Of a stretch of 64,000 nucleotides of DNA, positions 23,232 through 37,848 are shown piece by piece. Position numbers and translations under genes: made by a program. The stretch comes from Cerasicoccus arenae. GTDB taxonomy: Bacteria; Verrucomicrobiota; Verrucomicrobiia; Opitutales; Cerasicoccaceae. Numbering within the stretch: position 1 is the stretch's first letter; each line of letters opens with the position of its first letter. The notes beneath the pieces are model-generated. The model was given only the letters and a program-made list of their open reading frames with translations. It had not been told where the DNA came from and did not search any database. The stretch covers positions 126,591 to 190,590 of the forward strand of contig NZ_BMXG01000003.1 of the NCBI RefSeq assembly GCF_014651635.1. Direction: 5' to 3'.

Positions 23232-25493
23232 ATGAAGCTGCGTTTGCGTCACAAGGTTGCGGGTCTGGCGATATTTTCGGCCCTACTGCCAGTTCTCGGT
23301 CTGGCAATATTGATTGCTGCCCAAGATCAAAAAAGCACTGCTACGATCGAACGCGAAATCGACAAGATTATCGGCGCAAATCTTCAGCATGCCGTGCTGG
23401 ACGTTTACGACCTCTGTTCCGTCGCGAACGACCTCATCCAGAAACAGGTGACGCGTACGCTTGGAGTCGCAGACTACGTGCTTGAGGAGCAGGGTGGCTT
23501 CAGCCATGGCGAAGAAAAGGTCCGCTGGCACGCAATCAATCAGTTTGACCGCGAAACAGTTTCCGTGGAGTTGCCCCAGATCCTTATTGGGGACAAAGGT
23601 ATTGCGCCGAACACCAGCTTCGCTGTTCGTTCGCCGGTAGTCGATCAGGTTAAAGAGTTGGTCGGCGGAACGTGCACGGTTTTCCAGCGTATGAACGCCG
23701 ATGGTGATATGCTGCGGGTGGCCACCAATGTTGAAAACGCCGATGGCCAGCGTGCTGTGGGCACCTACATTCCTGCGATGCGGCCAGATGGTTCGGTGGA
23801 CCCAGTTATCCGTCGCGTGGTACAGGAGCGAGAGATTTACGATGGCCCGGCTTTTGTGGTCAATCGCTGGTACCTCACTTCCTACCGGCCCATTCTAGAT
23901 GAGACGGGTTACGTGGTGGGCATGATTTACGTGGGTGTTCGCCGAGATGAGGCTTCTTCGCTGAAAAGTGCCATTTCCGAAGCCGAGATCGGTGCCAACG
24001 GCTATTCCTGGGTCATGTTTGGCAAAGACAAAGCACGGGCAAATCAATTTGTGCTGACTGGCCCATCGTTTCCTCACGGGCTGAAAATTAATGAGATTAC
24101 GGACGAGAATGGGAAGAAATTCTTTGAGGAAATTCGCCAGAGTGCAATCGCTTTGGACTCAAAAAAAGCCGGCGAAACGGGCTCACGTACGGTCATGTGG
24201 AAAGACATGGAGGGCGAGCCTCACAAACTGGAAATTTACTACGTATACTTTAAGCCGTGGGATTGGGTGATGGGCGTCACGGCACTGGCCGAAGATTTTT
24301 CGGAGCCTCATCGACAGATCGAAGCCGTTTTTGACGAAATTCTTTTTGCTACATTGGTTGGTGCGATTGTCCTCATGTTCCTGATATTTGCTTTGGCGAC
24401 TTGGTTGGGAGGCATCATTGCCCGGCCAATATCGTTCCTCACTAGAATTGCGGGCCACGTGGCTCGTGGGGAGCTGGCGGCTGCTCAGCGTGAGGTAGAC
24501 GCTGGTTGCGGTATGGGTGTGAAGCAGAAAGACCTCTCCCGCGCAACGGATGAGACCGGTGAACTTTTTCGCGCCATTCAGGATATGATTGGCAATCTCC
24601 AGCAACTCGTATCGGAGATGAAGGGTGCCTCGGGTCAGCTCACGGAGTCTGCCACAGAAATCAACACTTCGGCCCGTCAGCAGTCTAGCACAGCTCAGGA
24701 TTTTGGTGCATCCAGCACACAGATTGCTGCCGCCGTTAAGCAGATCTCTTCGACTTCGCAAGAGCTCTCCAAGACGATGACCAGCGTTACCACTGGTGCT
24801 CGACAAACTACGACTGTGGCCAGTGAAGGGCGCAGCCACCTCGACGCGATGCGGGACGGGGTGGACGATCTGTCGCTGGCAACGCAGTCCGTGTCAGGCA
24901 AGCTTTCTACTATTGCAGAGAAGGCGCAGAACATTAACAACGTCGTCACCACCATCTCGAAAGTGGCTGATCAGACTAATTTGCTGTCACTCAATGCCGC
25001 CATTGAGGCGGAAAAAGCTGGGGAATTCGGATTGGGCTTTGCCGTGGTTGCGCGGGAAATTCGCCGATTGGCTGACCAGACTGCTGTTGCCACTCTCGAC
25101 ATCGAACAAATGGTCAAAGAAATGCAATCCAGCGTGAGTGCGGGCGTCATGGAAATGGACAAATTTAATGAAGCCGTGCGCTCCGGCGTGGACACCGTCA
25201 ACCGCTTGAGCGGTCAGATGGAAAACATTATCAATGAAGTCGAGGCGTTGACGCCGCGCTTTGAGTCTGTGCAAGAGGGCATGGAAGCGCAGGCTAGTGG
25301 CGCGTCCCAGATTTCTGAGGCAGTTGGTGCCCTGAACACTGCTGCCATGCAGACTAAGACATCACTGGAGGGCTTCCAGAGCGCCGCCAGTAAGCTAAAT
25401 TTTGCGGTGACTGCGGTTAATGGTGGCATCGCCCGTTTTAAAACCGATGATGAGGGAGACGAAAAACCCGCATCCAACCCACAAGAGTCATGA
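23232..25493 (+). CDS. Methyl-accepting chemotaxis protein 1
   Basis: A 753-residue transmembrane sensor. The first membrane helix (about 8-30) and a long periplasmic region to about residue 365 look like a Cache_3-Cache_2 sensor. The second helix (LVGAIVLMFLIFALATW), a HAMP domain and a cytoplasmic coiled-coil signalling domain follow. The hairpin tip reads VADQTNLLSLNAAIEAEKAGE, the conserved CheA/CheW-binding site. It lacks the C-terminal NWETF-type tether, and no motility genes are nearby. It opens a chemosensory operon and overlaps the next receptor gene by 4 bp. By position it matches the receptor (WspA) of Wsp-type systems. Confidence 0.92.
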   Translation: MKLRLRHKVAGLAIFSALLPVLGLAILIAAQDQKSTATIEREIDKIIGANLQHAVLDVYDLCSVANDLIQKQVTRTLGVADYVLEEQGGFSHGEEKVRWHAINQFDRETVSVELPQILIGDKGIAPNTSFAVRSPVVDQVKELVGGTCTVFQRMNADGDMLRVATNVENADGQRAVGTYIPAMRPDGSVDPVIRRVVQEREIYDGPAFVVNRWYLTSYRPILDETGYVVGMIYVGVRRDEASSLKSAISEAEIGANGYSWVMFGKDKARANQFVLTGPSFPHGLKINEITDENGKKFFEEIRQSAIALDSKKAGETGSRTVMWKDMEGEPHKLEIYYVYFKPWDWVMGVTALAEDFSEPHRQIEAVFDEILFATLVGAIVLMFLIFALATWLGGIIARPISFLTRIAGHVARGELAAAQREVDAGCGMGVKQKDLSRATDETGELFRAIQDMIGNLQQLVSEMKGASGQLTESATEINTSARQQSSTAQDFGASSTQIAAAVKQISSTSQELSKTMTSVTTGARQTTTVASEGRSHLDAMRDGVDDLSLATQSVSGKLSTIAEKAQNINNVVTTISKVADQTNLLSLNAAIEAEKAGEFGLGFAVVAREIRRLADQTAVATLDIEQMVKEMQSSVSAGVMEMDKFNEAVRSGVDTVNRLSGQMENIINEVEALTPRFESVQEGMEAQASGASQISEAVGALNTAAMQTKTSLEGFQSAASKLNFAVTAVNGGIARFKTDDEGDEKPASNPQES

Positions 25494-27703
25494 GCCTACG
25501 CACGAAAATACTCGTTTACGTGCTCCTGCCAGTCCTGTTGACGGCTGGCAGCGTGGCGGTTTTTAATATCTATCGTGGCCACACGCGGATGCTTGAGAAA
25601 GACAAGCGCTTGATGATGGAAGATTTGGCCAAAATTGCTCTGAAGGTTGAGCAAGCCAATCTGGAGGCGGTCACGGTTTCCCGCACCATCGCCGATGCTC
25701 AAGAGAGCGGCATGTTTGGTCTGCGTAATGAGTCCGTTGCGCTGCTGCGCCGGGTGTTGGAGGCCAACCCGCAATTCGTGGGTGTGTCAATCGGCTACGA
25801 GCCCAATGCCGACGGCAAAGACACTGATTTTCTGGCTTCTTTTTCGCGTCCGCCCAATTGGCTGGGTGAGGACGGGCGCTTCATCCCTTATTGGTATCGT
25901 GATCTGTCTGATGGTCAGCGAATCAAATCCGAGACGCTGGTCGATATGGACACGAGCCTCTATTATAACGGTGTGCGTCAGGCGTTGTCGAAAAACCCCG
26001 AATTACGCTATTACATCACCGAGCCGTATATCTATAATAACCTCAACCTGATCGTTGAGCAAATGTCGCCCATTGTAATCAATGGCCGCTTCCAGGGGAT
26101 CGTCGGCGTGGATCGGTCTTTGGACACACTGAACGATGCATTACAGGGCTTGCGACCGTATGCAGGCTCGCAACTTTATCTCGTCAGCAGTCGTGGCCGT
26201 TTAATTGCCACCACGCTGGGTAGCGAATTCCGCACGATGCCCGTGGACCGGTTTTACGTGCAGAGAGACGAGGACGGTGGCCGCGTCATGCTCGATATCT
26301 TTGAGCACAACGAAGAACAGGGGATGATGGAATTCAACTCGGACCGTGGTGTTCGATTGAAAGATGCAGATGTCGATCATGCCTACCGCAATCTTTTCGA
26401 TCGCATTTCCGAGACGAAGCAGGGCAGCCCACCGATTATCTTTGAAGACCCGTTAACGGGTGATGAGGCCTTTATCGCCAGCGCCTTCATTCCCACTGGT
26501 GGCTGGCGTCTGGTCATGACCGTCCCGGAAGCTGCCATTACTGGGCCAACTTGGGATGACATCAAGCGAGCAATGATTGTTGGCCTGATTGGTATTCTCA
26601 CGATGGTTCTAATCATTGTTGTTTTCGCCAATCGTTTCAGTGCGCGTATCCGCCATGCTAATGACCTCGCACAAGCCGTTGCCGACGGTGATTTAACCCA
26701 TGATGCGGAGATCGTGACCAGCGACGAAACCGGCCAGTTGCTCAAGGCGATTGATCTGATGGTCTCCAACCTCAACGCGCTCCTGCTTCAGGTGAAACAT
26801 TCTACAATCCAGCTTGTTTCGACGGCAACTCGCATCAGCGGTGCCGCTAAGAGCCAAGAGGTCACGATTCAGGATTTTGGCGCATCGACTCAGGAAATTG
26901 CCAGCGCGGTCAATGAGATCACCGCTACCTCCCGCGATTTGCTGGAGACCATGCGCGATGTGGCTGAGGGAGCCGATGAGACGGGACATATCGCCGAAGA
27001 TGGCCGTCGCCAATTACTTGATATGAGCCAGTCGATGGACAATCTGTCCTCGGCCACCAGCTCCATCGCCGCGAAGCTCGCCGTGATTAGCGAAAAGGCG
27101 AACAATATCACCAAGGTCGTTACCACGATTGGCAAAGTTTCAGAGCAGACGAATCTGCTGTCACTCAATGCGGCGATCGAGGCGGAAAAGGCCGGCGAAC
27201 ATGGTCTGGGCTTCTCTGTGGTCGCACGGGAAATCCGTCGTCTCGCTCACCAGACGGCTCAAGCCTCAGTGAACATCGATACGATGGTCAATGAGATGCA
27301 GGCAGCAGTCAGCTCCGGCGTCATGGAGATGGATAAATTTAACGAATCTGTCCGCAGTGGCGTGCAGGAGGTTGGTAGTTTGGGTGAACGGCTCGACGAG
27401 ATCATTACCGGCGTGCAGAACGTCACCCCGCGCTATGTCTCCGTACGTGAAGGCATGGAAGCGCAGACGCAAGGGGCGCAGCAGATCAGCGAGGCGATGG
27501 TCAATCTGCGCGATGGCGCGTCGCGGACCGCGGAATCTCTGAAAGAATTCGATGAGGCGACCCGAGCGCTTCATGCCGCCGTCAATGGCCTACGTCGTGA
27601 AGTTTCCCGCTTCAAGGTCAAGGAAAAGGCCTCCACTGGCATGACGCATATGCCCTTCCCAATGCGTGGTCCTTTTCCGCCCAGACCATCAGACAAAAAA
27701 TAG
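25490..27703 (+). CDS. Methyl-accepting chemotaxis protein 2
   Basis: A 737-residue transmembrane receptor. The first helix is at about 9-30. A periplasmic dCache-type sensor follows, with NPQFVGVSIGYEPNADG, YWYRDLSDGQ, ITEPYIYNN and GRFQGIVGVDRSLD, the features of Cache_1 ligand-binding modules. Helix two lies near MIVGLIGILTMVLIIVVFA, then HAMP and the signalling domain with EQTNLLSLNAAIEAEKAGE. Its cytoplasmic part closely parallels the first receptor, suggesting duplication, while the sensors differ. The C-terminal tail after KEKASTGMTHMPFP is proline-rich. It probably supplies a second input to the same CheA array. Confidence 0.92.
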   Translation: MSLRTKILVYVLLPVLLTAGSVAVFNIYRGHTRMLEKDKRLMMEDLAKIALKVEQANLEAVTVSRTIADAQESGMFGLRNESVALLRRVLEANPQFVGVSIGYEPNADGKDTDFLASFSRPPNWLGEDGRFIPYWYRDLSDGQRIKSETLVDMDTSLYYNGVRQALSKNPELRYYITEPYIYNNLNLIVEQMSPIVINGRFQGIVGVDRSLDTLNDALQGLRPYAGSQLYLVSSRGRLIATTLGSEFRTMPVDRFYVQRDEDGGRVMLDIFEHNEEQGMMEFNSDRGVRLKDADVDHAYRNLFDRISETKQGSPPIIFEDPLTGDEAFIASAFIPTGGWRLVMTVPEAAITGPTWDDIKRAMIVGLIGILTMVLIIVVFANRFSARIRHANDLAQAVADGDLTHDAEIVTSDETGQLLKAIDLMVSNLNALLLQVKHSTIQLVSTATRISGAAKSQEVTIQDFGASTQEIASAVNEITATSRDLLETMRDVAEGADETGHIAEDGRRQLLDMSQSMDNLSSATSSIAAKLAVISEKANNITKVVTTIGKVSEQTNLLSLNAAIEAEKAGEHGLGFSVVAREIRRLAHQTAQASVNIDTMVNEMQAAVSSGVMEMDKFNESVRSGVQEVGSLGERLDEIITGVQNVTPRYVSVREGMEAQTQGAQQISEAMVNLRDGASRTAESLKEFDEATRALHAAVNGLRREVSRFKVKEKASTGMTHMPFPMRGPFPPRPSDKK

Positions 27704-27722
27704 AACTATTCCTTTTCTGACT

Positions 27723-28196
27723 ATGTTGACCGTGCTCTTCCATTTGGGCGACCAGAGTTTTGCAATCGACGCCGAGTGCGTCGAGATTGTGATTCCTGCG
27801 TTGCCGCTGCGCCCAGTTCCGGGTGCGCCTGCGTTTGTGGGAGGGCGCTTTGAATACCGTGGCCGCATTATCCCGGTCATCGACCTTGGCCAACTCATCT
27901 TCAAGCACCCGCTCAACGAGGGCCTCAGCTCTCGTTATATGCTGATCCAGTACAAGAAGCCGCAGGGGGGCACTGCACTACTGGGGCTCTGGGCGGAGCG
28001 AGTGACTGAGACTCTCGAAGTGTCGGATGATATGTTGGCCGAAGGCGGCGTATCTCCACCCGATGCCCGTTACCTCGGGCGCATTTTTACTTCGCCCGAC
28101 GGCGCAATCGTCCAGTGCGTTGAGACGTCCGACCTCTTGTCAGCCGAGGTCCGGGATTTACTTTTTAACGAACCGTCCGCCAAAACTGCTCCGTGA
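27723..28196 (+). CDS. CheW-like scaffold protein (WspB position)
   Basis: A 157-residue CheW domain starting at ATG 27723 (MLTVLFHLGDQSFAID); the longer frame from 27666 overlaps the receptor gene. Typical strands are seen: VEIVIPALPLRPVPGAPAFV, GRIIPVIDLGQL and the C-terminal GAIVQCVETSDLLS. It would couple receptors to CheA in the cytosol. In gene order it corresponds to wspB. Its stop overlaps the cheR start (GTGA), so production of the two is probably linked. Confidence 0.88.
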   Translation: MLTVLFHLGDQSFAIDAECVEIVIPALPLRPVPGAPAFVGGRFEYRGRIIPVIDLGQLIFKHPLNEGLSSRYMLIQYKKPQGGTALLGLWAERVTETLEVSDDMLAEGGVSPPDARYLGRIFTSPDGAIVQCVETSDLLSAEVRDLLFNEPSAKTAP

Positions 28197-29428
28197 AATT
28201 GCCCGCTCGCATCACGCGCGATTTGCGCGAACAATTTGGACTTGACGAGGGCGTGTTCCGCGGGAGCAGTCTCAATAGCGTCATCCGTCGGCGGATGGAG
28301 GAGACTGGGCAGTTCGAGCTGGATGATTATTTTGACCTATTGCAGCAGTCGCGACAGGAATTCATAGCCTTTGCTGACGAGCTACTGGTACCGGAGTCCT
28401 GGTTCTTTCGCGATGGTAAGCCCTTCATCTGGCTGACAGAATGGCTCCGCACGGTTTGGCGTAAAAATCATCAGGGTGAGAAGCTCCGCATCCTTAGTCT
28501 GCCTTGTGCTACCGGCCAAGAGCCCTATTCCATTGCGATGACGTTGCTGCACGAGGGTTTTTCGCCAGAGAGTTTCCACGTGGAAGCTGGCGATCTCAGC
28601 GAACGCTTTATCAAGGACGCCCAACGCGGTGAATATCGCAAGATCGCCTTTCGCAGCGAGATGGCGGAAAGCTACGCTAGTTATTTTGAGGATGCTGGTA
28701 ACGACCTACGGCGGGTGCGTGATCATGTCCGAAAGCAAGTGACTTTTCGCCAGCTCAATTTACTTTCCCCGACTTTTCTGCAACACGAGCCGCCGTTTCA
28801 CGTCATTTTTTGCCGCAATGTGCTCATCTATTTCAGCTCATGCTCACGTGAGCGGGCAGTAGCTGGGCTAATGAACGCCCTCGCCCCAGACGGCGTACTT
28901 TTTGCCGGGCATGCGGATTCGCTGCCATCAATTACATCAACGGTGAAAGCGGTTGGCCCAACGGGTGCTTTTTGCTTCGAACGTCGCCCCGTCGAGCCGG
29001 AAGTGTCACAATCATCGCTAGTCAATCGAGTGATTCGCTCTACCCCCCCCCCTCGACAACCAAAACCAACCCGTCACCCCCCCCCCTTGGAATCCGCAAA
29101 ACTGTCATCTGCCGACCAATGGAACAAGGTGCGCGCATTCGCCAATAGCGGGCGCTTGGAAGAAGCAGAAAAGCTTTGTCAGGAGATGATGAAGCAATCG
29201 CCACCTACGGCGGACGCCTTTTGCACATTGGGGGAAATCTATTCTGCTCAGCGTCGCCATCGCGAAGCCGAGCCTTTGTTTCGCCGCGCTGTTTATTTGG
29301 AGGCGCGTCACGCGCAGTCCCTCTTTCACCTTGCTCTGCTGTCCGAACGCCGTGGCGATCAGGCTGGGGCCGAGCGTCTGCGGAAGCGTGCTCAGGCTGC
29401 GGAAAAAGCATCGGAGGTTAAGGCATGA
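28193..29428 (+). CDS. CheR methyltransferase with TPR domain (WspC position)
   Basis: A 411-residue protein. Residues 1-275 are a CheR-type SAM methyltransferase: LPCATGQEPYSIAM (SAM site), AGDLSERFIKDAQRGEY, and the signature FCRNVLIYFS. It methylates receptor glutamates. Residues 300-410 hold TPR repeats (AFCTLGEIYSAQRRHREAE, SLFHLALLSERRGDQAGAE), as in WspC. The domains are joined by a proline-rich linker encoded by two runs of C10 (29043-29052 and 29077-29086), which could slip and cut off the TPR part. The GTG start overlaps the preceding stop. No CheB methylesterase gene is present to reverse methylation. Confidence 0.93.
   Translation: MKLPARITRDLREQFGLDEGVFRGSSLNSVIRRRMEETGQFELDDYFDLLQQSRQEFIAFADELLVPESWFFRDGKPFIWLTEWLRTVWRKNHQGEKLRILSLPCATGQEPYSIAMTLLHEGFSPESFHVEAGDLSERFIKDAQRGEYRKIAFRSEMAESYASYFEDAGNDLRRVRDHVRKQVTFRQLNLLSPTFLQHEPPFHVIFCRNVLIYFSSCSRERAVAGLMNALAPDGVLFAGHADSLPSITSTVKAVGPTGAFCFERRPVEPEVSQSSLVNRVIRSTPPPRQPKPTRHPPPLESAKLSSADQWNKVRAFANSGRLEEAEKLCQEMMKQSPPTADAFCTLGEIYSAQRRHREAEPLFRRAVYLEARHAQSLFHLALLSERRGDQAGAERLRKRAQAAEKASEVKA
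29043..29086 (+). repeat. Two C10 tracts in the cheR linker
   Basis: Ten consecutive C at 29043-29052 and ten more at 29077-29086, separated by 24 bp. They encode short proline runs in the linker between the methyltransferase and TPR domains. Gain or loss of one C would shift the frame before the TPR part while leaving the catalytic domain intact. Confidence 0.85.
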
Positions 29429-30018
29429 GTGACGACGAACACGAGATGGCCGCCCAAGAACGCGCCGCAATGCTTCGCTTGCTCGACCGTGCGCCGCCCG
29501 AGGGCTATTTGTCCGACTGGCAGGATCGCCTCCGTGCCAAGGAAGACGAACATGAGCGCGAAACGCAGGGCGTGCTAGTCTTCCGGCTTTTCGACGAGTG
29601 GCTCGCCATTGAGGCCAGCATCGTCAAGGAGATCACGGCTGACGCCACGATACACCGCATCCCGCAGCGCACAAACAACGTCTTGCGTGGCTTGGTCAAC
29701 GTCCGCGGCGAGCTGCAATTATGCGTGTCGCTGCATGCCTTGTTGAATCTTGAGCGCACGGGTGAGGAGAAGGTGCTTTCCCGCCGAGTGCATCCACGAA
29801 TGATCGTTTTCCAAGGGCCTGATGGTGCGTTTGTCTTTCGGGCGGAGGAGGCCTATGGCGTCCATGCGCTGGAGAAATGCCTCCTTGAGGAGTCCCCCGT
29901 GACGGTCAGTAAAGCGATGGCAACCTTTACCCGAGGGCTCTTTACCTTACTCGATACGAAGGTGGGCCTGCTCGACCACGAACTCATTTTCCACAGCCTG
30001 AAAACGCAACACCTGTGA
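29425..30018 (+). CDS. CheW-like scaffold protein (WspD position)
   Basis: A 197-residue CheW protein with an N-terminal extension of about 45 acidic and basic residues (LLDRAPPEGYLSDWQDRL), a feature shared with WspD. The CheW domain follows: LVFRLFDEWLAIEASIVKEI, IHRIPQRTNNVLRGLVNVRG and ELQLCVSLHALL. The C-terminus contains GLLDHELIFHSLK. It overlaps cheR and cheA by 4 bp each. Having two CheW proteins in one operon, one beside the receptors and one beside cheA, is characteristic of Wsp-like systems. Confidence 0.9.
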   Translation: MSDDEHEMAAQERAAMLRLLDRAPPEGYLSDWQDRLRAKEDEHERETQGVLVFRLFDEWLAIEASIVKEITADATIHRIPQRTNNVLRGLVNVRGELQLCVSLHALLNLERTGEEKVLSRRVHPRMIVFQGPDGAFVFRAEEAYGVHALEKCLLEESPVTVSKAMATFTRGLFTLLDTKVGLLDHELIFHSLKTQHL

Positions 30019-32825
30019 GCGACGACCCTCAGAGTTTCCCAATGCTCGACCTCTATCAGCAAGAGGTCGAAACGCAGGGCGCAGCCCTCAACGAAGGGCT
30101 GGTGGCATGGGAAGCTGATCCCGCATCAGCCGATATCGACGCCCTCATGCGGGCGGCTCATTCGCTCAAAGGTGCCGCGCGGATTGTTGGGCTGGACTTG
30201 GTCGGCAAGGTTGCCCATGCGCTGGAAGATCTCTTTGTCGCCGCTGAAAAGGGGGAGGCGTCCCTTGGTTCCGATCAACTGGATTGGCTATTCAACGCGG
30301 TCGATATTTTGGTCGAATCTGGCCGTCAAGCTGAAGACAAAATGGCTGCTTGGCTCAAGGACAACATCGCTTGGGCCGATGAGGTGCAGAAAGGCTTGGT
30401 CGCAATCCAGGTTGCTGGCAGCGCTCCTGCGGAACCAGCAAGCCCGGCAACACCCGAGCCCGCCCCGAGCTTGGTGGAGCCACAGCCTCAAGTTGCCGCG
30501 CCCAAGCCTGCGCAAGTCATCAAGCCGCCGAAGCAGACGCCTGACCTTTCCATGATCGACCTCTACCGGATGGAGGCAGAGCAGCAGGTCGGTGCGCTGA
30601 AAGAAGGCTTGGTCAGCCTGAATCCCGAAATCGCCGATCCGAAGACTTTGGAGCCACTCATGCGCGCCGCGCATTCGATGAAAGGTGCGGCGCGGATCGT
30701 CGGTTTGCTCGCCGCTGTTGAGGTTGCCCGTGGCGTGGAGGACGCCATGAACGCCGCCATCGAGGGAAAAATCAAATTCTTCCCCCCCCATATTGACGCC
30801 TTTGAGCGTGCCGCAAATTTCTTGGCTGAGTTTAGCGCCGCTAGCGACGCCGACCTTGCTGAATGGCCTGAAGCGCATGCTGACGAATATTCCGCCGTGA
30901 TGGATGGCCTTCAACGTACGCTGGCTGGTGAATCGTTGGCCACCGCTCCCGAACCAGTCGTCAAACCTGCGCCCGTTGCAGAAGTTCCGACCGTCTTGCC
31001 GGAAGTGCAGGGCGCTGCTCCCGCCAAGGCCAAGTCTGTGCGCCGTGAGCGCTCCAAGTCCGATGCTGTGCCAGACAAACCGAAGAGCGACAGTGTGGTC
31101 CGTGTGTCGGCAGACAGCCTCAATCGTCTCATGGGACTGGCGGCAGAAACGGTGGTCGAAACGGGGCAACTGGAAAACTTTCGCGACACCCTGCTGCGTC
31201 TCAAGGAAGCCCAAGGCGAGCTGAACGGCCGCATTGGTGCCAGTGAGCACATTCTGGACAAGATCAACCTTACCGCTGATGTGCGCGTGCATTTCGAGCA
31301 AATCCGCCAGTCCGCTCAAAACGCGTTGACGCTTGTCCGTGAGCAATTAGAGCACTTTGACGCGTTTGCGCGCCGCAATACGCTGCTTTCAGATCGTCTT
31401 TATCGCGAAGTGCTGGCCAGCCGGATGCGCCCATTTAACGACGGCGTACAGGGCTTTCCACGCATGGTTCGCGACGTCGCCCGCAGCTTGGGCAAGCAGG
31501 TGCGCTTTGAGATCGAGGGGAAGGAAACTCCCGTCGACCGAGACATTTTGGAGCGCCTCGAAGCGCCTCTTAACCACATCCTTCGCAACGCCTGCGATCA
31601 CGGGCTCGAAACGCCTGAGGAGCGTGAGGCCAATGGCAAAGAGTCGACTGGCTCATTGACGCTGAGTGCCCGCCACAGCGCAGGGATGCTCGTGGTCGAA
31701 GTCAAAGACGATGGGCGTGGCATTAACTGCGAAAAACTTCGCGGCAAGATTGTGGAAAAGCAGTTCGCTACCGCGGAAATGACCGCCCAGATGAGCGAAG
31801 AAGAAGTGCTGGAGTTTCTGTTTCTACCGGGCTTTTCGACTGCTGGGAAAGTCACAGAAATTTCGGGCCGTGGCGTCGGGCTGGATGTTGTTTTGACCCT
31901 CATGCAGCAGATTGGTGGGCAAGCGCGTATCAACACCAAGGTAGGGCAGGGCACGGCCTTTCACCTGCAGGTGCCGATCACGCGTTCGGTCATTCGGGCG
32001 CTTTTGGCTGAAATCGACGGCGAGCCTTATGCCTTTCCATTGAGCCGCATTGCGCGGACTCTGCGCATGGATTACAAGGACCTGAAAATGGTCGAGAATC
32101 GCCAGTATTTTGAAATGGAAGGCCAGAACGTCGGCCTTGCCCCGGCCCGTGCGGCGCTTGGGTTCACGGGGGCAATTAGCACTACGACACCTCATCTGGA
32201 CATCGTCGTGGTTAATGACCGCAACCAGCTCTACGGCGTCGAAGTTGATCGACTGATCGGTGAGGCGGATTTGGTCGTGCGACCATTGGATAAGCGCTTG
32301 GGGAAAGTGCCGGGCGTGAGCTCGGCGTCACTCACCGAAGCCGGCGAACCGCTGTTGATTCTCGACGTTGAAGACATGATTGCCTCAATCGACAAGCTGC
32401 TCTCTGGCGGCGCGCGGTTGGAGTCTAAGCGCACATCTGAGGAGTCGCGCGTGGCCCGGAAACACATCCTGGTGGTGGATGACTCCATCACCGTGCGCGA
32501 AACTGAGCGTCAGCTTCTTGAAAACGCTGGCTATGCAGTGGAAGTGGCTGTTGATGGTGCCGATGGCTGGAATGCGGTGCGCTTGGGCGAATTCGACCTC
32601 GTCGTGAGTGACATCGATATGCCCCGCATGAACGGCTACGAGTTTGTTTCCAAGATACGCGCGGATAGCCGCTTGGAGAATCTTCCGGTGATCGTCGTTT
32701 CCTACAAGGACCGCGAGGAAGACCGTGTTAAGGGCCTCGAAGCTGGGGCTGATTATTATTTGACCAAGAGTTCGTTTCAGGACGACACCTTTATTCAGGC
32801 CGTTCGGGATTTAATTGGAGATTAG
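30015..32825 (+). CDS. Hybrid CheA kinase with two Hpt domains and receiver (WspE position)
   Basis: A 936-residue histidine kinase. It has two Hpt domains, each with the phosphorylatable histidine in MRAAHS (His49 and His220), then a proline- and alanine-rich linker and a dimerisation helix region. The HATPase domain follows (NHILRNACDHG near 520-530, DDGRGI at 565-570, GRGVGLDV near 618-625), then a CheW-like domain (660-790) and a C-terminal receiver with VDDS, phosphoacceptor Asp866 in VVSDIDMP, and the YLTKSSF lysine. WspE has one Hpt and one receiver; the duplicated Hpt here is notable. The likely output is phosphotransfer to the fused receiver. A C8 tract (30782-30789) lies in the second Hpt. 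Confidence 0.93.
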   Translation: MSDDPQSFPMLDLYQQEVETQGAALNEGLVAWEADPASADIDALMRAAHSLKGAARIVGLDLVGKVAHALEDLFVAAEKGEASLGSDQLDWLFNAVDILVESGRQAEDKMAAWLKDNIAWADEVQKGLVAIQVAGSAPAEPASPATPEPAPSLVEPQPQVAAPKPAQVIKPPKQTPDLSMIDLYRMEAEQQVGALKEGLVSLNPEIADPKTLEPLMRAAHSMKGAARIVGLLAAVEVARGVEDAMNAAIEGKIKFFPPHIDAFERAANFLAEFSAASDADLAEWPEAHADEYSAVMDGLQRTLAGESLATAPEPVVKPAPVAEVPTVLPEVQGAAPAKAKSVRRERSKSDAVPDKPKSDSVVRVSADSLNRLMGLAAETVVETGQLENFRDTLLRLKEAQGELNGRIGASEHILDKINLTADVRVHFEQIRQSAQNALTLVREQLEHFDAFARRNTLLSDRLYREVLASRMRPFNDGVQGFPRMVRDVARSLGKQVRFEIEGKETPVDRDILERLEAPLNHILRNACDHGLETPEEREANGKESTGSLTLSARHSAGMLVVEVKDDGRGINCEKLRGKIVEKQFATAEMTAQMSEEEVLEFLFLPGFSTAGKVTEISGRGVGLDVVLTLMQQIGGQARINTKVGQGTAFHLQVPITRSVIRALLAEIDGEPYAFPLSRIARTLRMDYKDLKMVENRQYFEMEGQNVGLAPARAALGFTGAISTTTPHLDIVVVNDRNQLYGVEVDRLIGEADLVVRPLDKRLGKVPGVSSASLTEAGEPLLILDVEDMIASIDKLLSGGARLESKRTSEESRVARKHILVVDDSITVRETERQLLENAGYAVEVAVDGADGWNAVRLGEFDLVVSDIDMPRMNGYEFVSKIRADSRLENLPVIVVSYKDREEDRVKGLEAGADYYLTKSSFQDDTFIQAVRDLIGD

Positions 32826-32844
32826 CGTAAAAACTCGCTGTTGC

Positions 32845-33603
32845 ATGGAGAAACTACTGCCGCGCTTTGATGTTCTCGGGGTTGAAATCAGTGCGCTCGA
32901 TCTGGCAACGGCCAGTCGGCTGATTATTCAGGCGGCGAATGAGAAACGAAAGAGTTACGTGACATTCACTGGGGTGCACGGCGTGGTCGAATCGCAGGAC
33001 GACCCCGAACTACGGTGTATTCTAAACGAGTCCTTTCTGACTGGTGCCGATGGCATGCCGCTGGTTTGGCTGGGTAAACGGCAGGCTGGGCCGCATGTGG
33101 GACGAGTCTATGGGCCTGACGCGATGCTGGCCATTTGCGCCGAAACCGCAGCGACTGGGCAAAGACATTTTCTCTATGGCGGGGGGGAGGGGGTGGCGAT
33201 TGATCTAGCCGAAAAACTCCAAGCGCGGTTCCCCGCATTGAATGTGGTGGGAACTTTTACCCCGCCGTTTCGCCCACTGAATGCCGAAGAGGAGCAAGCG
33301 TTGATTGAGCAGGTCGGGGCCGTGAAACCGGATTTTTTCTGGGTGGGCATAAGCACACCCAAACAAGAAAAATTCATGGCTGAGTGGTTATCCAGACTGG
33401 ACGCCACGGTGATGCTTGGTGTTGGTGCGGCATTTGATTTCCACAGTGGGCGTAAGCCGCAGGCACCGTGTTGGATGCAGCGTAGTGGCTTGGAATGGCT
33501 CTATCGCATGATCACCGAGCCCCGACGTCTTGGGGGCCGTTATCTGCGCAACAATACGCGTTTCCTCTGGCTACTTGCGCGACAAATCCTTACACGGCAT
33601 TAG
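32845..33603 (+). CDS. WecG/TagA/CpsF family glycosyltransferase
   Basis: A 252-residue cytoplasmic enzyme of the GT26 family. It transfers N-acetylmannosamine or a related sugar onto a lipid-linked intermediate in exopolysaccharide, ECA or teichoic-acid synthesis. Conserved blocks are TGADGMPLVWLGK, RVYGPDAMLA, FFWVGISTPKQEKFMAEW and VMLGVGAAFDFHSG. ATG 32845 is 19 bp after the cheA stop; a frame opening at 32815 would overlap cheA. Its position directly behind the Wsp-like genes hints that polysaccharide synthesis is the controlled process. A G7/G5 tract lies at 33181-33193. Confidence 0.9.
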   Translation: MEKLLPRFDVLGVEISALDLATASRLIIQAANEKRKSYVTFTGVHGVVESQDDPELRCILNESFLTGADGMPLVWLGKRQAGPHVGRVYGPDAMLAICAETAATGQRHFLYGGGEGVAIDLAEKLQARFPALNVVGTFTPPFRPLNAEEEQALIEQVGAVKPDFFWVGISTPKQEKFMAEWLSRLDATVMLGVGAAFDFHSGRKPQAPCWMQRSGLEWLYRMITEPRRLGGRYLRNNTRFLWLLARQILTRH

Positions 33604-33652
33604 GTCGAGCCTTTAGGCTTTCCCCGAAAAACGAAATCCCTATAATTACACC

Positions 33653-36238
33653 ATGGCAGCAAACTCCACCGGCAGCAGATTAAGGCTCCTCTTATTACTG
33701 CTTCCGATCCCTCTATTTTGGATCGCATTTACGGAGGCACCGTTTGCCCAAGACTTTTCCAAGCCACTCCTGAACTTGGCGATGGATTGGCGTTTTCGTG
33801 TGCGTGGTCCGGTTGACGTGCCTGAGGTAAAAATCGTCTACGCGGATATTGATGCACGGACTATCTCGGAACTGAAAGAGCGACCTTGGCCTCGTGAGCA
33901 AATGGCGCAGATTGCGCAGATTCTCTTTGAGTTTGGCGGTGCTAAGGCGATTGGTTACGATATAATATTCTCAATGAACACGCCCTCGGTGTTGGTTGAT
34001 ATGGAAAAGTTTAAAAAGAACGACGAATATTTTGGTGCGGTTTTTGATAAGTATCCAGGCATTGTTCTAGCAGCTAATTACACGGGGGTGAAAATGCCCA
34101 AAACATTTGAGCAATTGGATATGAATGAAGCGCGCGAAGTCGTCGAGCAACCGCTTGGAGAAATTCCGCTTGCTTATCTCCGTGAGGAAAATCCTAAAGC
34201 ATATAACTATACGCCAGAAAACAGTTTTCCGGAAATGCCAAGTTATCCAATTTGGCGATATTCTCGGGGCAGTGATGGCGTTGGCCTGATTGCTGTTGAA
34301 CAATCAATGAGTGCTGGGCCGGTGCCTCGGTGGGTGCCACTCTATACGAAGGCGAAGGGGCCGTACTATACGCTGAGCTTGATCAAGGGCTTTGAAGTCT
34401 TGATGGACTTGAAGATGAATGAGGAAATCCAACTGATGGACAAGGAGGATTTCGCCATGTATAAAGAGTTTGTCCAAATCCCCGCGATCAAAGAACTGCC
34501 AGACGAATCGACGGTGATGATTTATAGTAAAGAGGGGATGCCTATTGGGGCAGCTTCCTATATTACTGAGCAGACGTTTTACCATTTCTCAATAGAACTT
34601 GCGCTAAGGTACCTTGGTTTGACGCACGAGAATATCGAAATAACGGAGGATCGTTTAATCATCCGTCTGAATGATGGAACGGTATTCAGGGAGATTCCGA
34701 TGACCAACGGGCAGATATCGGAAATCAATTGGTTTTCACCATGGAGAGACTATGAACTGAATCCACGGGAAAGCGTGGATAAGATTTTTATCCATGCAAA
34801 TAATCTACTCTATGACCCTACCGTTGAAGGTGCCGCAAAAATTGATATTTCGGATGAAGAACTTGCTCAGTTAAAGGAGGATGCGAAGACGTTCTTTAAG
34901 AAATTTAATGACGCCATTGTTCTTATTGGTCCTGTGGATCCGATCCTCCAAGATTTGGCCCCGACTCCTTTTGATGCAGCGGCTGAGCCAAAGGTCGGCG
35001 TCCACGGTAACATGCTCAAAACTATTTTTTCAGGCAAATTCATCAACCGATTACTATGGTGGCAGCACGCAGTAATCACTTTGGCCCTTACTTATATCGT
35101 CGCCGCGCTGGGCACTTACACTGGTAAATATAATGTGTGGATGAAGCTCGCCAGCGCCATGGTGCTTTGTGGATATGTCTTTTTGGTTTTTGGCGTGTTC
35201 AGTACCTTTCATTTGGTGATCCCTTTTATCGCGCCAGTGGCGTCGGCGGTGACGACTACGCTCGCGGGTGCGGTCTATCAACTGATCGTAGAAGAAAAGC
35301 AACGTGGCCGCATCAAGGGTATGTTTGGCGCGTATCTCTCACCGGATCTTGTGAATAGCATGGTCGAATCTGGTGAAGAGCCAACTCTCGGTGGGGAAGA
35401 AGTTGAGATCACGGCATTTTTCTCAGACATTCAGGGTTTTTCGACCTTCTCTGAACTCCTGACAGCAGACCGACTTGTTGCCCTGATGAATGAATACCTC
35501 ACCGCAATGACCGATATTTTGCAGGAGGAATTGGGCACGCTCGACAAATACATTGGCGATGCGATGGTAGCTATGTTTAATGCGCCTATCCATGTGGAGA
35601 ACCACGCATTGCGCGGGTGCCTTGCCGCGGCCCGTATTCAGAAACGACAATTGGAATTGCGCAAAAAATGGGAGAGTGAGGGCGATGATTGGCCGAGCGT
35701 TGTCGGCAAAATGCAAACCCGAATTGGTCTCAACACCGGCCCCGCTGTTGTCGGCAACATGGGGTCAGAAAACCGGTTTAACTACACCATGATGGGCGAC
35801 ACGGTAAACCTTGCCGCGCGTAGTGAATCCGGTGCCAAGTCATATGGAGTCTACATTATGGTCACGGGCGAAACTCGCAGTGCCTGTATGGCCGTGAGCG
35901 ATGCTTGTGTCTTCCGTTATTTGGATAAAATTCGCGTGAAGGGTCGCAGCCAACCCGCCGAAATGTATGAGCTTGTTTGCACTCGCGAAGACCTGGATGA
36001 TGATACTGCGAAGTGCCTCGAAATTTATCAGCAAGGAATCGAGTGCTATCTGAAGCAGGATTTCAACGGTGCAATCGAGTTTTTCGAGCAGTCCGTGGAA
36101 CTGGAGCCTAATCGCCCGGAGAAAAATACCGAAGCCCCCACAACACCCAGTGACGTGCTCTTGGCACGTTGCCTCTACTACATCGAAGAACCTCCAGGAG
36201 CAAACTGGGATGGGGTCTTCGTAATGAAGTCGAAGTAG
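33653..36238 (+). CDS. CHASE2-domain adenylate cyclase with C-terminal TPR
   Basis: An 861-residue membrane protein. The N-terminal anchor helix (10-28) and an extracytoplasmic CHASE2 sensor (about 40-440, with DWRFRVRG and IVYADIDART at its start) are followed by three membrane helices (about 462-540). A class III nucleotidyl cyclase domain comes next. Catalytic features are intact: FFSDIQGFSTF and YIGDAMVAMF (metal aspartates), the lysine of LDKYIGD expected for ATP rather than GTP, and NYTMMGDTVNLAAR. The tail (GIECYLKQDFNGAIEFFEQ) is TPR-like. It begins 49 bp after the glycosyltransferase gene in the same orientation, probably the last gene of the chemosensory transcript. Confidence 0.92.
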   Translation: MAANSTGSRLRLLLLLLPIPLFWIAFTEAPFAQDFSKPLLNLAMDWRFRVRGPVDVPEVKIVYADIDARTISELKERPWPREQMAQIAQILFEFGGAKAIGYDIIFSMNTPSVLVDMEKFKKNDEYFGAVFDKYPGIVLAANYTGVKMPKTFEQLDMNEAREVVEQPLGEIPLAYLREENPKAYNYTPENSFPEMPSYPIWRYSRGSDGVGLIAVEQSMSAGPVPRWVPLYTKAKGPYYTLSLIKGFEVLMDLKMNEEIQLMDKEDFAMYKEFVQIPAIKELPDESTVMIYSKEGMPIGAASYITEQTFYHFSIELALRYLGLTHENIEITEDRLIIRLNDGTVFREIPMTNGQISEINWFSPWRDYELNPRESVDKIFIHANNLLYDPTVEGAAKIDISDEELAQLKEDAKTFFKKFNDAIVLIGPVDPILQDLAPTPFDAAAEPKVGVHGNMLKTIFSGKFINRLLWWQHAVITLALTYIVAALGTYTGKYNVWMKLASAMVLCGYVFLVFGVFSTFHLVIPFIAPVASAVTTTLAGAVYQLIVEEKQRGRIKGMFGAYLSPDLVNSMVESGEEPTLGGEEVEITAFFSDIQGFSTFSELLTADRLVALMNEYLTAMTDILQEELGTLDKYIGDAMVAMFNAPIHVENHALRGCLAAARIQKRQLELRKKWESEGDDWPSVVGKMQTRIGLNTGPAVVGNMGSENRFNYTMMGDTVNLAARSESGAKSYGVYIMVTGETRSACMAVSDACVFRYLDKIRVKGRSQPAEMYELVCTREDLDDDTAKCLEIYQQGIECYLKQDFNGAIEFFEQSVELEPNRPEKNTEAPTTPSDVLLARCLYYIEEPPGANWDGVFVMKSK

Positions 36239-36311
36239 CCGCGCCAAAGGCGCGGAGATTGGAGGTTAAAGCATGAGGGGAAGCGCTAACGTAGATCGTT
36301 CAACTTTAACC
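36239..36311. other. Hairpins between convergent genes
   Basis: A perfect stem CCGCGCC-AAA-GGCGCGG (36239-36255) starts right after the cyclase stop codon. A wider inverted repeat GGTTAAAG/CTTTAACC (36264-36271 with 36304-36311) follows. No T tract is present, so they may be processing or Rho-linked ends rather than intrinsic terminators. Confidence 0.45.
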
Positions 36312-36321
36312 TTTCCACTAC

Positions 36322-37848
36322 TTATATTCCGAGTGCTTCCTGGATTTTCTCCAGTGGCTCGATGCCCGCGGACATACGGATCAGCTCGGGGTTTAAGTCG
36401 TAGGAAAGCAGTCGTGCTCGCCCAGCCTCAGAAGTGACCTCCTCAAAATGCGCGAGGTACATGAATGGACACATCATGGTGAAGCCCGTGCCGAAGCTTG
36501 GCCCTTTGACGATTCGCGCGTTGTCGTAAAAATCCGTTAGTGGTCCATTCAACTCGATGGTGAAAACGGTGCCACAGGCGTCGTCGCTGCGCGCAATGGC
36601 GTTGAAATTCGCGGCGGTTTTTGCTGATCGTGGATGCCAGACTTTGCGAATCGCGGGATGCGCCTCCAGCCATTCGATGAGGCCGCGCGCATTGGCGCTT
36701 TGTTGGGTGGCTATTTCGGGCATCGTGTCGATCTGCGCAGCGAGGCGTGCGAGGTCACGCGCGTAAGGCTGCTCGCATTTGCCTGCCAGTGCCGCGGAAA
36801 GTTCGTCGGCAAACGGGCTTGTCGGATTGACTGCGGCCGCGCCGATCATGACGTCGCCTTGGTGCGCGGCGTATTTCGTAAGGCTCGTCACGAGCAAGTC
36901 GGTATGCGGGAGCACGTCGACGCTGGAGATGCCGGCAATGGTGGGGTCGTAAATACGGATGACGCCATGCTTGCGGCAAAGTTCATCGAGCAGCGCGACA
37001 TTGGGCGTTTGGATCAGTGGATTGGTTGGCAGTTCAGTAACGATTGCAGCTAGTTCATCGCCTGCCTCGGCAAATAATTGCCGTAGTGCGGTTTCGTCGA
37101 AGACATCGAACTGCACAGTTAGCTTGTTTTCCGGCCCAAGGAATTGCTCGAGGATACGTTGGGTGTCCAGATAGAGCCAGCCAAGTTGCAGGTAGCGGGT
37201 GCGTCCGCGTGGTGCCTGGACTTGGCGTGCGGCGCGCAGGGCACCGTAAAAGGCGTTCATGCCGCAGTTGGCCAAGTGGATCTCGTCGGTGGGCAGGTAG
37301 CTCTGCAATACATTGAGCACTTGGATTTTGCTTTCCTTGGCTACGCAGTTTTTCGATGCAGAGTTACCTTTCGATAGAAAATTATTATCGATTGCCGAGT
37401 CCGATGGCGGGGCTTGGCCGTGTGCACGCAGGTAGTCTTCAGCATGGCGGGAGGAGATACAAAGGCCAGTGTGCTGGAGGTATACCTTGGCGCGGTGGCG
37501 TAGCTCGGGGTTGTCGGGCAGGCTTACACAAAAGAAATCAGACTCGGGGACGACGGCGGAGTCTTCTGCATTCAGCCAGCGCACGCAGTCCTGCGCGGCA
37601 GATTCGGAAGGCAGTAGAAAGACGGCGCGTCCTGCCAAACCGAGTCTTTCGGTGGCGAGGTTCATGGCGCGGACCACGTAGTCGTGGAGCACGAAGCGCG
37701 GATAGGCGTATTTGACCTGGGCAATGGTCGCCGGGCGTTTTTCTTCGTAGCCGATGACATCGTCCATCGTGGGTAGGCTGCAGCACACTGCGTGGACGGT
37801 GTCTGGGATGGTTGCCCCGAGGGGGTAATGCTGGAGAGTGCTGGACAT
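36322..37848 (-). CDS. Cystathionine gamma-synthase-like PLP enzyme
   Basis: A 508-residue member of the Cys/Met metabolism PLP family. The C-terminal 380 residues have the fold-type I features, with the PLP lysine in VTSLTKYAAHQGDVMIG and the aspartate in IYDPTIAG. An unusual N-terminal part of about 130 residues (YPLGATIPDTVHAV, DVIGYEEKRP, YPRFVLHDYV) precedes it. This layout recalls the long fungal cystathionine gamma-synthases rather than the roughly 380-residue bacterial MetB. It would make cystathionine or related thioethers in methionine synthesis; the substrate is not certain. It is convergent with the cyclase and has no sulfur genes beside it. Confidence 0.82.
   Translation of the reverse strand: MSSTLQHYPLGATIPDTVHAVCCSLPTMDDVIGYEEKRPATIAQVKYAYPRFVLHDYVVRAMNLATERLGLAGRAVFLLPSESAAQDCVRWLNAEDSAVVPESDFFCVSLPDNPELRHRAKVYLQHTGLCISSRHAEDYLRAHGQAPPSDSAIDNNFLSKGNSASKNCVAKESKIQVLNVLQSYLPTDEIHLANCGMNAFYGALRAARQVQAPRGRTRYLQLGWLYLDTQRILEQFLGPENKLTVQFDVFDETALRQLFAEAGDELAAIVTELPTNPLIQTPNVALLDELCRKHGVIRIYDPTIAGISSVDVLPHTDLLVTSLTKYAAHQGDVMIGAAAVNPTSPFADELSAALAGKCEQPYARDLARLAAQIDTMPEIATQQSANARGLIEWLEAHPAIRKVWHPRSAKTAANFNAIARSDDACGTVFTIELNGPLTDFYDNARIVKGPSFGTGFTMMCPFMYLAHFEEVTSEAGRARLLSYDLNPELIRMSAGIEPLEKIQEALGI

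Follow-up and report, generated by a model that had tools for sequence, protein, structure and literature searches.

On what does a Wsp-type chemosensory cluster act in a genome in which no GGDEF domain is found? In textbooks, Wsp couples surface contact to c-di-GMP. The question is raised by a stretch of 64,000 nucleotides from the marine bacterium Cerasicoccus arenae (Verrucomicrobiota; the window) in which six chemosensory genes are followed on the same strand by a glycosyltransferase and an adenylate cyclase gene. An earlier note on this DNA had read the six as the order wspA to wspE, lacking both CheB and a GGDEF regulator, and had proposed that the two downstream genes carry the output to polysaccharide synthesis and perhaps cAMP. 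These claims were examined in the window genome (G000) and nine relatives (G001 to G009), together a set of 10 Cerasicoccaceae genomes, in 52 genomes of the order, and in a survey of 80 loci encoding relatives of the window CheA across the GTDB genome collection.

The proposed order of the core genes holds, with all six on the plus strand:

23232..25493, plus strand: MCP1, a WspA-like receptor with Cache_3-Cache_2 and MCPsignal domains (Pfam PF17201, 6e-75; MCPsignal, 3.2e-37)
25490..27703, plus strand: MCP2, a second receptor with a PDC/dCache sensor, HAMP and MCPsignal (Pfam)
27723..28196, plus strand: CheW1, WspB-like (CheW PF01584, 7.6e-20)
28193..29428, plus strand: CheR with C-terminal TPRs, WspC-like (CheR, 1e-40, plus TPR)
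29425..30018, plus strand: CheW2, WspD-like (CheW, 7.5e-16)
30015..32825, plus strand: CheA, WspE-like, with two Hpt domains, HATPase, CheW and a C-terminal REC (Pfam); the Hpt His motifs are residues 49 and 220

The order MCP, MCP, CheW, CheR-TPR, CheW, CheA-REC (23232-32825) is kept in the nine family relatives, with orthologs of MCP1 and of MCP2 in the same position in all nine, and CheA is 59-83% identical across the family. The 4 bp stop-start overlaps described for most of the genes are present at four junctions (MCP1/MCP2, CheW1/CheR, CheR/CheW2 and CheW2/CheA) but not at MCP2/CheW1; judging by the starts of the relatives, CheW1 most likely begins at the ATG at 27723, 19 bp past the end of MCP2. 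The Hpt domain of CheA (window 30015-30900) is duplicated in Cerasicoccus, G004 and G005; the g4 genus, which belongs to this family too, has only one.

According to one survey, a CheR with TPRs is characteristic of ACF pathways (PMC3447774). The published description of Cerasicoccaceae gives the family as non-motile and lacking flagella (PMC10288369). The cluster contains neither Pil-Chp genes nor single-domain regulators of the PilG/PilH kind, and in an NCBIfam search no Wsp-specific model was matched. It is a Wsp-type chemosensory core of the ACF class, in a bacterium that by the description of its family has no flagella. In a CheA tree the window protein grouped with G018 and the f17 genomes. 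G018 forms a long branch and, beyond the order, the raw nearest neighbours of this CheA are mixed, and therefore little weight is given to this tree.

The cluster is also the sole CheA/CheW system of the genome, as CheW1, CheW2 and the cluster CheA account for all CheW-domain matches. Four MCPs are encoded, two in the cluster, one on contig C5 and one on contig C7. The C7 receptor, an orphan, forms a row of three genes on one strand (locus L144, 4184-8815) with a cyclic-nucleotide-binding histidine kinase and a urea/amide-type periplasmic binding protein; this row is a possible entry point of cAMP into signalling. In agreement with the earlier note, no GGDEF gene lies in the cluster, and a genome-wide search of the 97.6%-complete assembly found no GGDEF domain either.

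The situation is different for CheB. The full-genome search for an unlinked copy, which the earlier note had itself named as a check, found one:

G000:C6:38406-39443: CheB with a receiver domain, single copy in the genome, not linked to the cluster

The absence of CheB is thus rejected, which by the earlier note's own criterion speaks against a system devoid of it, and only the lack of the gene within the cluster stands. The C6 gene supplies the CheB with receiver (WspF) that belongs to a Wsp/ACF system. It is the ortholog of the cheB located directly behind cheA in G003, G006, G007, G008 and G009 (54-82% identity across orthologs). In G001 the two genes are about 5 kb apart, and in G002, G004 and G005 they are unlinked. 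From this distribution, the cheB-containing unit is widespread in Cerasicoccaceae, with cheB having left it repeatedly. The cheB on contig C6 (locus L002, 8404-17488) has polysaccharide export and Wzc-like genes at a distance of about 5 kb; in G001 (L125, 5350-9741) a large adhesin-like gene with Ig and DUF5122 repeats separates cheA from cheB, and in G002 (L199, 3292-7650) a gene of similar size adjoins cheB, the two products being 1452-1463 aa long.

Where, then, is the terminal regulator? In the surveyed loci, the gene behind cheB often encodes a receiver fused to an enzyme, which by Pfam is a GGDEF protein, a SpoIIE phosphatase (including the Verrucomicrobiota loci L111 and L121), a class III cyclase (in cyanobacteria) or a histidine kinase. 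Scored against the receiver of P. aeruginosa WspR, 74 proteins reach 139-204 bits, below which the scores drop to 100 and 74, and by this measure the receivers behind cheB form one class, called WspR-class here. The outputs on these 74 receivers, counted with local HMMs whose seed members are mostly Pfam-confirmed and with the family's own orthologs included, are SpoIIE (30), GGDEF (19), cyclase (15) and histidine kinase (10). In nine cyanobacterial loci (L048, L049, L050, L054, L060, L062, L090, L098 and L112) a WspR-class receiver-class III cyclase lies behind cheA-cheB, so that these Wsp-like clusters probably give a cAMP or cGMP output; they come close to the cAMP output imagined in the earlier note, but in a different phylum. 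Some Verrucomicrobiota of the order to which the window genome belongs have a WspH-like regulator behind cheB (L258, 11835-14006; L259, 11742-13823; L260, 12086-14197), consisting of a WspR-class receiver, HisKA, HATPase and two more receivers.

In the window genome, the sole WspR-class receiver found belongs to a protein encoded on contig C8:

G000:C8:134356-135477, minus strand: REC-SpoIIE, a WspR-class receiver with a SpoIIE/RsbU-type serine phosphatase (Pfam PF07228, 2e-37)
next gene after it: RsbW-like (anti-sigma-factor) kinase (HATPase_c_2, 5e-22)

The C8 receiver is 59% identical to that of P. aeruginosa WspR and scores 168 bits against it, the next among the receivers fetched from its own genome scoring 67. 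Its best PDB matches are 3BRE (4.9e-48), which is PA3702/WspR (PMC2270323), and WspR 3I5A (4.6e-47), followed by RssB (4.6e-21). With the L111 protein as query, exactly one full-length REC-SpoIIE was found in each of the 10 family genomes, 56-57% identical to L111; in the window genome the C8 protein scored 430 bits and the next receiver 57. The earlier call to look for an unlinked WspR is hence answered in part: there is a WspR-class receiver, but it carries SpoIIE and not GGDEF. As defined by a receiver fused to GGDEF, the Wsp R-system is not what this genome encodes; in the wide sense, with a WspR-class receiver on the terminal regulator, the C8 protein would take that place.

The REC-SpoIIE orthologs are 73-89% identical in the 10 family genomes, and in all 10 the RsbW-like kinase gene directly follows. 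The metal-binding aspartates (D187, D205, D327 and D379/D380) and the phosphoacceptor aspartates are invariant in 26 homologs. Two parts of an RsbU/RsbW partner switch are present, a SpoIIE-type phosphatase with its metal-binding Asp residues and an RsbW-like kinase; the latter is matched by the NCBIfam RsbW/SpoIIAB models below cut-off only. An AlphaFold model of the C8 protein (pLDDT 91) consists of a receiver, a long helix and a PP2C domain, with RssB and then WspR as closest folds. No STAS gene was recognised by eye in the 18 kb around the C8 locus. In a receiver tree, based on few columns and with many open forks, the Cerasicoccaceae proteins fall among SpoIIE-type proteins that are linked to che clusters in other phyla.

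Since the phosphatase gene is unlinked to cheA throughout the family, its pairing with this CheA is drawn from the receiver class, from co-occurrence and from linkage elsewhere. The CheA core and REC-SpoIIE were joined into a single query, with which the 52 genomes of the order were searched. Wsp-like CheAs, scoring 323 bits or more as against 214 or less for other CheAs, are found in 11 genomes; a WspR-class receiver is found in the same 11 and in none of the 41 others. This would correspond to a Fisher p of about 2e-11 if the genomes were independent, which they are not, the 11 falling in about six families. The receiver is attached to SpoIIE in eight of them and to a histidine kinase directly behind cheB in three (G017, G043 and G057). 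GGDEF domains are present in 9 of the 52 genomes and absent from 8 of the 11 with a Wsp-like CheA. In G018 the REC-SpoIIE gene lies directly behind cheA, at 40 bp. Weaker REC-SpoIIE/RsbW pairs exist in G021, G022, G039 and G054, which have neither a WspR-class receiver nor a Wsp-like CheA, and some of these pairs lie beside other kinases. The SpoIIE/RsbW output module is therefore a shared one that can serve other inputs. Because the receiver-phosphatase is better conserved than CheA, it may have further duties.

Taken together, it seems likely that the cluster core, the unlinked CheB and the C8 receiver-phosphatase constitute a Wsp/ACF pathway that is free of c-di-GMP and leads to a partner switch, with the glycosyltransferase and the cyclase as bystanders. 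By analogy with the known families, the two receptors, coupled by the two CheWs, would control CheA, and their methylation would be set by CheR-TPR from the cluster and CheB from contig C6. CheA would pass its phosphate to CheB and to the WspR-class receiver on C8, and the phosphorylated receiver is expected to render the SpoIIE/RsbU-type phosphatase active. The active phosphatase would then dephosphorylate a putative STAS antagonist, which in this state may divert the RsbW-like kinase and so release its presumed target. A partner switch is the most likely output, as a SpoIIE/RsbU-type phosphatase takes the place of the WspR diguanylate cyclase, with an RsbW-like kinase as the next gene; the phosphotransfer and the direction in which control runs are inferred, as are the STAS partner and the target at the end of the chain.

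Other candidates for the output must be weighed against this one. The pathway could act through a stand-alone CheY-like protein, perhaps on type IV pili:

contig C5, L143, 7466-10008: CheY-like protein of 144 aa and orphan MCP, with a 4 bp overlap

The overlap of this cheY-MCP pair, the similar receivers in other family genomes and the genome's four PilT-family ATPases that score over or near cut-off speak for such a route. However, its receiver falls outside the WspR class (52 bits, as against 168 for the C8 protein), the receptors, CheR-TPR and CheA-REC fit the Wsp/ACF layout, and the family is described as non-motile (PMC10288369), so that we regard this route as unlikely.

A still smaller probability is assigned to the idea that all eight genes are one functional unit, in which CheA signalling controls the two genes behind cheA and produces a polysaccharide and cAMP output:

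32845..33603, plus strand: WecG/TagA/CpsF glycosyltransferase (PF03808, 1.7e-54; TIGR00696 over cut-off), judged to lie outside the system
33610..33646, plus strand: promoter-like element 5' of the cyclase, CCTTTAGGCTTTCCCC...TATAAT, kept in the genus
33653..36238, plus strand: CHASE2 class III adenylate cyclase with a C-terminal TPR-like part (CHASE2, 1.3e-28; Guanylate_cyc, 9.5e-20)

The gaps of 19 bp before WecG and 49 bp before the cyclase were given correctly, and the common strand and the short gaps speak for such a unit; the cyclase may be co-transcribed by read-through. Between cheA and the cyclase no clear terminator was seen in a promoter and terminator scan of 32400-36500, in which the numbers of sites were at chance level (5 terminator-like sites against 3.9 expected). 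The motifs of the cyclase, whose nearest solved relative is CyaB (3r5g), look intact, cyanobacteria encode a REC-cyclase behind cheB, and on contig C7 the cNMP-binding histidine kinase is situated two genes from the orphan MCP. On the other hand, this cyclase lacks a receiver domain and has a CHASE2 sensor of its own, and the eight-gene order was found in none of the nine relatives. A cyclase ortholog exists in all 10 family genomes and is near cheA in the window genome only; the two genes are 96 kb apart in G001, and on other contigs or more than 1 Mb apart in the remaining relatives. A close WecG ortholog (63%) is encoded in G002, while those of G004 and G005 are weaker, and none of them lies beside cheA. 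The G002 copy is separated from the cyclase gene by about 5 kb and three genes.

An alignment of the window, G001, G002 and G003 reveals, at about 40 bp before the cyclase, the conserved element CCTTTA(A/G)GCTTTtCCC...TTATAA/TATAAT, which suggests that the cyclase has a promoter of its own; in the three relatives the gene bearing this element is far from cheA. Of the two separating signals that were to speak against a common operon, there is a conserved promoter-like element; the terminator scan gave chance numbers. Furthermore, the cyclase has the same convergent neighbour (window 36322, minus strand) in G001 and G003, which places the new junction, or breakpoint, on the cheA side. On synteny in the nine relatives and the conserved element, WecG and the cyclase are rejected as parts of the operon, and they look like bystanders put behind cheA by a recent rearrangement; an output through them is left unsupported.

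Least probable of all is a REC-histidine kinase on contig C2 (G000:C2:254997-255299) as terminal regulator in the manner of the Burkholderia WspH systems: a REC protein of similar size occurs in 10 of 10 family genomes and WspH-type outputs exist in the same order (G017, G043 and G057), but with 66 bits to WspR its receiver falls well short of the C8 protein (168) and of the proteins of those three genomes (about 190-200), and as a non-WspR receiver it was rejected as a WspH.

With the C8 receiver-phosphatase as the preferred end point, the Cerasicoccus pathway can be set beside known systems. It shares with Pseudomonas Wsp (wspABCDEFR, an R-system) the six-gene core order, CheR-TPR, CheA-REC, CheB-REC and the WspR receiver, and differs in having two MCPs, an unlinked cheB and terminal regulator, and a SpoIIE phosphatase for GGDEF. 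Similarly, in the Burkholderia H-system a WspR-like receiver is joined to a different output domain (WspH, a REC-histidine kinase; PMC8552884), there a kinase and here a phosphatase. A 2021 study gave WspR or WspH as the only end points of Wsp in beta- and gammaproteobacteria and noted their shared receiver (PMC8552884). The ACF clusters with CheR-TPR surveyed in 2012 have the same core, and REC fused to phosphatase 2C, nucleotidyl cyclase, HK and GGDEF is listed there (PMC3447774), so that a modular output was already known. For a Wsp core with SpoIIE output, this general survey was the only source found in the literature. Its regulators lie inside the clusters, whereas that of Cerasicoccus is dispersed, was recognised by its WspR-class receiver and is joined by an RsbW partner. 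Shewanella Che1 with CrsR/CrsA likewise ties a chemosensory locus to a partner switch, with proposed control of RpoS, but is a different pathway class (F7 array) with a different regulator and a linked locus (PMC9855816). Finally, P. aeruginosa RssB (REC-PP2C; PDB 3EQ2/3F7A) has the same REC-helix-PP2C architecture and is the best fold match, yet the C8 receiver is far closer to WspR (5e-48 versus 5e-21). What is new is the identification of the unlinked regulator of a c-di-GMP-free Wsp core through its WspR-class receiver, together with a conserved RsbW partner.

Conclusions from gene neighbourhood in one genome alone can be misleading: the supposed cAMP and polysaccharide output vanishes on comparison with nine relatives. 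We lean, with some reserve, towards regarding Wsp pathways as a superfamily defined by the receiver, in which the WspR-class receiver is combined with at least four enzymes: a diguanylate cyclase, a histidine kinase, an adenylate or guanylate cyclase in cyanobacteria and, in Verrucomicrobiota and other groups, a SpoIIE phosphatase with RsbW. The form found in Cerasicoccaceae would be a c-di-GMP-free Wsp with scattered genes that drives an anti-sigma partner switch. A Wsp core in bacteria devoid of GGDEF proteins, paired through its receiver class with a partner switch run by a phosphatase, would demonstrate that sensing core and output are separable modules.
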